Assembly: GCA_951812525.1 (NCBI GenBank)
Contig: OX638316.1
Coordinates: forward strand, 4,396,506 to 4,460,505
Direction: 5' to 3'
DNA: 64,000 nucleotides
Source of the DNA: an uncultured Poribacteria bacterium
GTDB taxonomy: Bacteria; Poribacteria; WGA-4E; WGA-3G
Each line of letters begins with the position of its first letter. Within the stretch, counting starts at the first letter, position 1. This document shows, one piece after another, positions 43,896-47,195 of this stretch. A program made the position numbers and the translations under genes. The notes under the pieces were generated by a model that did no database searches, had not been told where the DNA came from, and worked only from the letters and a program-made list of their open reading frames with translations.

Positions 43896-45056
43896 TTACA
43901 CCACGCTTGTCACGACCCCGAACCCGATCCGTACGCCCATCTTTTTCACTTCAAATCGAGTGCCGATTTCCATTACTAACGGCAGGTCAAGCGCGATGGT
44001 GACATGTGCATAAGCCCCCGATGTGATAAGAGAAAGTCCGGGTGGAAGCCGCAGGTGTGCCGGGACATCAATACCCCATAGGAAAATATCAGGTCTATCA
44101 TTTTCAATGAGCGGGATATGTGTGCCGCTTTCTTCATAAGTCAGCAGATAGATAAGTGCGGTAAACTCAGAATGCGCTTTGACCGTTTTCGGTGTACAAA
44201 GCACCTGCCCGACGGACAACCAGTCTGGTTCAGATTCGACACGCACCTCATTTCCATCTATACCGATCACTCGCGTCTTGATTCTGTCTCCCTTACCGAC
44301 AATATCGACTGCCTGTCCAACAGCGAGTTGCCCTTGCATAATTTCGCCTCGCACAGATACACTCTCCTTGCTTTCTCCAGTAATCTCATAAATTGGCATA
44401 ATAAGCGGTGAGTGTTCAGTATCCACGGGTGCTGGCATTGTACTGTTCATTGCAACAATCAAATCAACAATGGGTTGCCACTGAGGAGAGGTAATTCTAT
44501 CCCCTTTGTAGTCTAATGCCTTATGTAGGTCGCCGACGATTATGGGTGTCGTTTCTTTTTTACTTCCGTACGCATTTAGGAGTTCCTGCATCTCTTGTTG
44601 GCAGATGTCAACGATTTCATCGTCCTCTGTAACATCACCCGTATTGAGAAAAGCAAGCACTGAGGGTAGATGCATATCGCTCGTAAGGCGGAGATGTGCT
44701 TCGGAGTCCGGTGTGACACCCTCCACTGCGTTCACCACCCAAATTGCGCTTTGAATTCTCGGTGAACCACTGATTAGCATCTTGATTACATCAATAGATG
44801 TCTCGCAGTCAATTTGCGTATAAAATTTGCCGCTGGTCTCATAATCAATCGCACGGTAGGTGATGCCGACCCCTTCTCGGATCGGGTGATGGATTGGGAG
44901 TTGTGTTTCAAAAGCACCTTCTCCATCTGTGTGAATTGCTCCGATTCTTGCGATCACTTTTGCCATCGTTGCAGTCAACGTCGTCTTACCGTGTCCATCC
45001 GCACCGAGGGTACAGATAGGTAGTCTGCTGTGTGTATTTTCTTTTTTTTCTGTCAT
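43896..45056 (-). CDS. Degenerate EF-Tu paralogue
   Basis: A 386-residue protein with the three-domain layout of EF-Tu (normally about 394). The P-loop is GADGHGKTT (residues 18-26). The switch I region reads IREGVGITYRAIDYET. G3 is DCETSID where EF-Tu has DCPGHAD, so the DxxG glycine and catalytic His are lost. G4 is NTGD (138-141) instead of NKxD, which should weaken guanine specificity. Domains 2 (MPIYEITGESKES) and 3 (HSEFTALIYLLTYEE, ending GVVTSVV) keep the fold. It is probably not a translation factor, but a nucleotide-binding or decoy protein. It has its own minus-strand promoter. Confidence 0.85.
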   Translation of the reverse strand: MTEKKENTHSRLPICTLGADGHGKTTLTATMAKVIARIGAIHTDGEGAFETQLPIHHPIREGVGITYRAIDYETSGKFYTQIDCETSIDVIKMLISGSPRIQSAIWVVNAVEGVTPDSEAHLRLTSDMHLPSVLAFLNTGDVTEDDEIVDICQQEMQELLNAYGSKKETTPIIVGDLHKALDYKGDRITSPQWQPIVDLIVAMNSTMPAPVDTEHSPLIMPIYEITGESKESVSVRGEIMQGQLAVGQAVDIVGKGDRIKTRVIGIDGNEVRVESEPDWLSVGQVLCTPKTVKAHSEFTALIYLLTYEESGTHIPLIENDRPDIFLWGIDVPAHLRLPPGLSLITSGAYAHVTIALDLPLVMEIGTRFEVKKMGVRIGFGVVTSVV

Positions 45057-45103
45057 CTCTTCTCTCCTAATGCTGGTAATCTCTTATCTATGATACCTCT
45101 TTC

Positions 45104-45132
45104 ATTATAGCAGAAAGTTGGCAATCGTGCAA
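45104..45132 (-). promoter_or_regulatory. Promoter of the EF-Tu-like gene
   Basis: On the minus strand: TTGCAC (45127-45132), a 17-base spacer, and the extended -10 TGCTATAAT (45104-45112). The start codon is about 50 bases downstream. Confidence 0.65.
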
Positions 45133-45281
45133 TGCGGAAAAACTTGCCAAATGGTTAGAGGCGTGCTAAACTATTAACGATTTTTATGGTAGACTTTAGA
45201 GTTACCTATACACACAGGGACCTCGACAAACATCTTTTGGGGCGAGGTTAGGAACGCCAGAAGACTTTTATCAAGATAAAA

Positions 45282-45788: not shown

Positions 45789-45824
45789 TGCAGTTTTAGT
45801 GTGCTGAGGAGGCAACCATACAAC

Positions 45825-47195
45825 ATGCAGATAAACGATTCATTACGTATTGCTGACCTGAAATCTCAGATTGAGAGGCTTTTTGAGTGTTCAGGTCAAA
45901 AGATTTTAGCCATTGAGGACACGTGGCCCCCTGAAAAAGGCACTCCTGTCTTCACCGTCGCTGGTACTTATACAACACGCGGTTGGACAGAATGGACACA
46001 AGGTTTTCAATTCGGATCCGCTATTCTCCAATTCGATGCGACTGGTGATGAACAGTTCCTTGAAATCGGCAGACGGAACACGATTGAGAAGATGGCACCG
46101 CACGTCACACACATCGGCGTGCATGACCACGGGTTTAACAATGTTTCCACTTACGGTAATCTCCGCCGACTGATGCGGGAAGGTGTGCTTCCGTGGAACG
46201 ATAGCGAAATGGATTTCTATGAACTCGCATTGAAAGCCTCTGCTGCTGTGCAGGCGAGTCGCTGGACTGAGATCAAAGATGGAACGGGGTATATTACCTC
46301 TTTCAACGGTCCTCATTCGCTATTTTCAGATACCATTCGCTCTCTGCGGGTTTTAGCACTTGGGCATACACTTGGCGCGGTGCTGATGGGTGAAGGTGAT
46401 GTCGCTATCAGCCTGATGGAACGTCTGCTCCACCACTCTCAAACGACGGCAGCCTATAATGTCTACTACGGCGAAGGACGTGATGCCTTTGACCTGCGTG
46501 GACGGGTTGTGCATGAGTCTATCTTCAATACGAACGATGGAAACTACCGATGTCCGAGCACACAGCAAGGATACTCACCGTTTACGACTTGGACACGCGG
46601 GTTAGCATGGATTATTACGGGCTATGCCGAGCAGCTTGAGTTTTTTGACACACTATCTGCAGATGAACTTGAACCTTACGGTGGATATGCCCTAGTAACA
46701 GCACACATGCGCAAAGCAGCTGAAGCTACCGCCGATTTTTATATTGAGAACACTGCACAAGATGGGATTCCGTATTGGGATACGGGTGCTCCCGGCTTAG
46801 CGGAACTTGGAGATTATTTGCCTGTTCCTTCTGATCCATATAATGATCTTGAGCCGGTGGATAGTTCCGCAGCAGCAATTGCAGCGCAAGGACTCATTCG
46901 ACTCGGTAACTATCTCAAAAAACACGGTGAAACAGATGCAGGCAATTCCTATTATCAAGCGGGTTTAACGGTAGCCAAGACCCTTTTCGCTGAACCGTAT
47001 CTGTCTGAATCTGACTCGCATCAGGGATTGTTGTTGCACTCGGTGTATCATCGTCCGAATGGGTGGGATCATGTGCCAGAGGGTAGGAAGATTCCATGTG
47101 GAGAGGCGTCTATGTGGGGCGATTACCACGCCCGCGAACTCGCTGTCCTGCTATGGCGAGAGATAAATGGGAAGCCGTATTTGACGTTTTTCTAA
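45825..47195 (+). CDS. GH88-like unsaturated-glucuronyl hydrolase-type protein
   Basis: A 456-residue (α/α)6-barrel protein. WTRGLAWIITGYAEQLE is the signature helix of this group, DSSAAAIAAQGL another, and the ending GEASMWGDYHARELAVLL is typical. Aspartates that act in GH88/GH105 enzymes could be D near FSDTIRSLR and in the DSS segment, but exact assignment is uncertain. Such enzymes act on unsaturated sugars left by polysaccharide lyases. No signal peptide is visible. I chose the ATG at 45825, with GAGGAGG upstream (12-base spacing), over a GTG 24 bases earlier. It converges on a Gfo/Idh/MocA gene. Confidence 0.8.
   Translation: MQINDSLRIADLKSQIERLFECSGQKILAIEDTWPPEKGTPVFTVAGTYTTRGWTEWTQGFQFGSAILQFDATGDEQFLEIGRRNTIEKMAPHVTHIGVHDHGFNNVSTYGNLRRLMREGVLPWNDSEMDFYELALKASAAVQASRWTEIKDGTGYITSFNGPHSLFSDTIRSLRVLALGHTLGAVLMGEGDVAISLMERLLHHSQTTAAYNVYYGEGRDAFDLRGRVVHESIFNTNDGNYRCPSTQQGYSPFTTWTRGLAWIITGYAEQLEFFDTLSADELEPYGGYALVTAHMRKAAEATADFYIENTAQDGIPYWDTGAPGLAELGDYLPVPSDPYNDLEPVDSSAAAIAAQGLIRLGNYLKKHGETDAGNSYYQAGLTVAKTLFAEPYLSESDSHQGLLLHSVYHRPNGWDHVPEGRKIPCGEASMWGDYHARELAVLLWREINGKPYLTFF

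Follow-up and report, generated by a model that had tools for sequence, protein, structure and literature searches.

A conserved EF-Tu paralogue in sponge-symbiotic Poribacteria that has probably lost both GTPase switching and tRNA delivery

Few bacterial proteins are as conserved or as abundant as EF-Tu, and bacterial duplicates of it normally either stay near-identical or disappear. In actEF-Tu2 (tuf3) the GTPase motifs are intact. A translational-GTPase fold has been reused as a non-hydrolysing adaptor in yeast Ski7, a paralogue of eukaryotic Hbs1 that serves the exosome; this offers a parallel to the Poribacterial protein described here, although there is no direct relationship between the two. 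In Atkinson's survey of translational GTPases a single bacterial EF-Tu subfamily was listed as distinct, namely actEF-Tu2, a group active in translation (PMC4342817). The Streptomyces protein (EF-Tu3, tuf3) has been described as a translation factor that is expressed under stress and resists inhibitors (PMC4342817). The archaeal SelB-like protein aSelBL has a disrupted G domain and its role is not known (PMC3037878; PMC4342817). In addition, EF-Tu(GDP) was found with Balon on hibernating ribosomes in 2024 (PMC10901736, 8rdw), which demonstrates that a static use of EF-Tu exists.

The gene considered here lies in a 64,000-nucleotide stretch of DNA (the window) from an uncultured Poribacteria bacterium. 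Its nearest known analogue is aSelBL, which is likewise an EF1/SelB-family paralogue, widespread in its lineage, with a disrupted G domain and an unconserved gene context. Judged from its motifs, the Poribacterial family belongs to the same general type, in which a translation factor has given rise to a pseudo-GTPase. However, aSelBL arose from archaeal SelB and has been described with tRNA- and ribosome-binding sites, whereas the Poribacterial paralogue arose from EF-Tu and still has its P-loop, but those sites have been lost. Moreover, the protein is not a member of aSelBL, since it scored 35 bits with the SelB model against 218 bits with EF-Tu. It resembles actEF-Tu2/tuf3 in being a clearly distinct second EF-Tu of one bacterial lineage, but actEF-Tu2 works in translation, whereas the tRNA and GTPase sites have been lost here. 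With canonical EF-Tu (TIGR00485) it shares the three-domain fold, ∼31–33% identity and the P-loop; unlike canonical EF-Tu, it is without the switch Thr and Gly, NKxD and the aminoacyl pocket. The Balon complex contains an EF-Tu in the open GDP form, which serves there as a static partner and does not carry tRNA; the predicted structure of the paralogue resembles this form, but the EF-Tu in that complex is an ordinary one. The open-access literature searched yielded no earlier account of a protein of this type.

The gene and its upstream signals are arranged in the window as follows.
43896..45056, minus strand: open reading frame of the EF-Tu paralogue, 386 aa, ATG start, stop at 43896-43898
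45063..45068, minus strand: ribosome-binding site AGGAGA
45104..45133, minus strand: genus-conserved promoter, comprising TTGCAC (45128-45133) and the extended -10 TGC-TATAAT (TATAAT at 45104-45109)

A first-pass annotation made from the DNA letters had described a full-length, three-domain EF-Tu paralogue with lost GTPase motifs, its own promoter and no frameshift, and the gene-level parts of this description were borne out. The 386-codon frame is intact, with zero frameshifts. Both models and structures place EF-Tu as the closest relative over the full length of the protein; the Pfam families GTP_EFTU and GTP_EFTU_D3 matched, while the Pfam domain-2 model gave no match in the window protein. 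Model scores were 210–218 bits for EF-Tu, 47 for EF-1A, 35 for SelB and 22 for CysN. The TIGR00485 score of 209.7 bits does not reach the equivalog cut-off of 522.4. On these scores the protein is EF1-family by descent, and of the EF-Tu subfamily rather than SelB, CysN or IF2. The source genome also has a single canonical tuf, located in the region of the ribosomal-protein operon.

The extended -10 element TGCTATAAT, ∼47 nt upstream of the ATG, is present in 29 of 35 genus orthologues, against a shuffle mean of 0.07, and the genus-wide upstream element reads TTGC-N-TGCTAYAAT. The promoter was not reported by a generic promoter scan because its -35 is weak. The flank TTTTTCC and a spacer motif, CAATTC, are also kept in many genus orthologues (window 45104-45133), a pattern that looks as if a regulator may bind across the promoter. 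The codon adaptation value is 0.705, compared with 0.763 for tuf and 0.726 ± 0.018 for the window genes; this is a mild argument for modest expression, below EF-Tu-like amounts, since codon bias is weak in the source genome. The adjoining genes are metabolic, transport-related or of unknown function, and translation genes are absent from the neighbourhood. A genus-conserved 464-aa protein without any Pfam match (window 45801-47195, plus strand) adjoins an HldE-like cytidylyltransferase.

Orthologues are present alongside canonical tuf in 71 of 73 genomes of this order of sponge-symbiotic Poribacteria, most of the sampled genomes being metagenome-assembled; the two genomes without one are assemblies of 86% and 78% completeness. 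Each genome has a single locus, except that in one (G048) the gene is split across two contigs. Identity is 74–91% within the genus and 38–54% between families, the orthologue frames are open with zero internal stops, and dN/dS is 0.08–0.12, which equals that of neighbouring genes and is alike across the three domains. The gene is maintained by selection, as the first-pass annotation had supposed. The orthologue search and dN/dS analysis proposed there revealed neither the absence nor the rapid decay of a pseudogene; a decaying pseudogene, for which a long tree stem and lost motifs might speak, is refuted by the distribution, the intact frames, the dN/dS of ∼0.1 and the conserved promoter and ribosome-binding site. 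Outside the phylum, no relative scored above the level of canonical EF-Tu among 387 genomes. A horizontal or viral origin was rejected, as no relative was found in viral_contigs and the PHROG match was only weak. An assignment as a defence gene was likewise rejected, as PADLOC gave no match.

In a tree built from EF-Tu-type rows only, the family forms a single clade (support 100). Its sister (support 100), on a stem of > 1 change per site, is L046, from a different family of the same class and outside the order counted above. The AU test is compatible with descent from a Poribacterial tuf (p 0.63), but long branches leave the root uncertain. L046 has family marks in common with the paralogue (DYETSGK, YRGNN...WQPI, PKSI and GTRF..KK) and has lost T61, R58, H66 and G83; it retains NKID, GSA, F218, T228 and E259. 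This one sequence suggests that the switch and trigger may have been lost first, and guanine recognition and the aminoacyl pocket later. In the genome G053 (79% complete), the half-decayed L046 is the sole EF-Tu-like match above threshold; the assembly probably lacks a canonical tuf.

The GTPase motifs were counted over 60 orthologues, with the following outcome.
44979..45005, minus strand: G1/P-loop GADGHGKTT, with GxxxxGK[TS] kept in 59/60
44796..44810, minus strand: G3, DCETS in place of canonical DCPGH, with the Gly lost in 59/60 and the His kept in 42/60
44634..44645, minus strand: G4, NTGD in place of canonical NKxD, with the Asn kept in 59/60, the Lys in 7/60 and the Asp in 14/60
44529..44534, minus strand: G5, Ser173 replaced by Asp (GDL against EF-Tu GSAL), with Asp in 58/60 and Ser in none

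The first-pass annotation had read the P-loop as present and G3 and G4 as DCET and NTGD, in agreement with these data. It had also reported the catalytic His as gone; this is true of the window copy but does not hold as a family trait, and the absence appears to be a local loss. Switch-I Thr61 is lost in all 60 orthologues, so that G1 is the only intact motif among G1–G5, and T61, G83, K136 and S173 are lost throughout the order. Positions 2–4 of G4 vary freely among orthologues. By sequence, then, the γ-phosphate sensors T61 and G83 and most of guanine recognition (K136, D138 and S173) are gone, and GTPase switching has very probably been lost. No part of the protein is as well conserved as the phosphate/Mg core (GxxxxGKT, D80 and N135), which has a retention of 0.98. 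In one orthologue, L043 (G042; L043:6853-8019), the P-loop is deleted (VG---EKSND) and the frame is still full length, so this lineage may not need to bind a nucleotide.

Retention was calculated as mean family retention over 192 positions invariant in canonical EF-Tu, with L043 left out, and its background value over these positions is 0.44. The E. coli EF-Tu yardstick sequence was confirmed against PDB entries, and the patch analysis used residue lists, in E. coli numbering, that we take to represent the functional sets of EF-Tu structures. Two regions of the window are of particular relevance.
44223..44264, minus strand: short domain-2 loop that replaces the aminoacyl/A76 pocket (region of E259, F261, R262 and N273), net -14 residues
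44577..44624, minus strand: helix D, the EF-Ts and L7/L12 surface in canonical EF-Tu, in which E144 and E152 do not vary within the family

The domain-2 loop change is lineage-wide and goes beyond the losses listed in the first-pass annotation. Retention falls to 0.00 in the aminoacyl/A76 pocket, to 0.10 at the tRNA contacts and to 0.01 in the 16S-shoulder stretch. With the pocket wholly replaced or deleted and the contacts to tRNA and 16S lost, a role as tRNA carrier is very unlikely, and the earlier suggestion of a tRNA binder is contradicted by the same values. At the kirromycin site, A375E is found in 59/60 and E378K in 60/60 orthologues, and G316 is lost. Besides the core, the least-altered surfaces are helix D and scattered domain-3 residues, but the retention of 0.63 for helix D (P ∼0.08) is a weak trend only. 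Mutation of L148 in EF-Tu weakens L7/L12 binding, and the equivalent position in the paralogue is I or M. In canonical EF-Tu, helix D binds both EF-Ts and L7/L12 (PMC5770553).

An AlphaFold2 model based on 63 aligned sequences predicted the three-domain EF-Tu fold with a pLDDT of 91, switch I forming a confident β-hairpin. In Foldseek comparisons the model reached a TM of 0.87 to EF-Tu-GDP structures, including Balon-bound 8rdw, whereas its TM to 2c78, a GTP-analogue form, was 0.57. As a control, the product of the canonical tuf in this genome was modelled by the same method and came out closed, with a TM of 0.90 to 1eft, 1exm and 1ttt and ∼0.5 to the open forms 1efc and 1tui; this control model is weaker (pLDDT 80, switches < 50, 16 aligned rows against 63). 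The models are suggestive of an open, GDP-like form for the paralogue and a closed, GTP-like one for its canonical counterpart, but conformations predicted by AlphaFold do not amount to evidence on dynamics.

Taken as a whole, the explanation that we favour, with about an even chance of being right, is that an ancient lineage-specific duplicate turned into a non-switching pseudo-GTPase scaffold for a partner of EF-Tu(GDP). Its components differ in strength. That the protein is a pseudo-GTPase without tRNA delivery is highly likely and, as far as sequence allows, decoding and tRNA delivery are ruled out by the missing tRNA and 16S surfaces. That it is held in a fixed open form is somewhat more likely than not. 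A nucleotide that is held fixed and does not cycle would fit the combination of lost γ-phosphate sensors and a strictly retained phosphate/Mg core, so a nucleotide diphosphate, or something similar, may be bound as a fixed structural ligand, and the protein would never close. The scaffold would then present the GDP-state surfaces of EF-Tu to a protein partner, a role favoured by helix D and the domain-3 residues being least changed. The likeliest partners would be those already contacted by canonical EF-Tu(GDP) via helix D and domain 3, namely EF-Ts or the L7/L12 stalk, and the protein, present at low abundance, would then regulate EF-Tu recycling or idle ribosomes. The first-pass annotation had likewise listed an EF-Ts binder, but naming either partner is tentative and unlikely to be correct: no adjoining partner gene is common to different families of the order, the helix D trend is weak and L148 is changed. 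A fuller version, in which a permanently GDP-shaped, tRNA-blind mimic of EF-Tu(GDP) holds EF-Ts or the stalk and tunes elongation, perhaps with a non-guanine nucleotide bound through the G5 Asp, is unlikely. The tsf matches per genome fit one short gene of ∼200 codons, with no duplicate, and two models of Balon-type hibernation factors found nothing in Poribacteria (PF18854 0/83, PF18844 0/30).

The absence of the P-loop in L043 counts against the scaffold explanation, since a bound nucleotide may then not be essential, and it also weighs on the idea of altered specificity, by which the P-loop and the G5 Asp, without NKxD, would bind ADP, ATP or an alarmone and make the protein a sensor or even an enzyme. 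The well-kept phosphate/Mg core, the near-universal S173D and the retained Asn135 all suit such a nucleotide; however, the elements that read the γ-phosphate are gone, no new catalytic motif was seen and the free variation within G4 is unlike a new specific base pocket, and we consider this reading unlikely. A structural protein that moonlights outside translation, with a cytoskeletal, chaperone or surface role and in which the EF-Tu fold is merely reused, would account for the loss of every decoding-related surface, the lack of an adjoining translation gene and the apparently ordinary expression. This too seems unlikely, as helix D and some of domain 3 still resemble EF-Tu and no extra domain was seen. 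The earlier proposal of a decoy that absorbs EF-Tu-directed toxins or antibiotics can appeal to the general EF-Tu shape, but the kirromycin-site and aminoacyl-pocket residues are replaced, and no defence-family match was obtained. Moreover, the low codon adaptation relative to tuf argues against EF-Tu-like abundance and so against a stoichiometric decoy. Order-wide, vertically inherited single copies are also atypical of resistance and defence genes, and a decoy of this type is highly improbable.

Overall, the EF-Tu paralogue probably does a new job. The long, order-wide retention of a copy that appears switch-dead and tRNA-free would mean that, in these Poribacteria, the EF-Tu fold has been taken into a new and conserved role.
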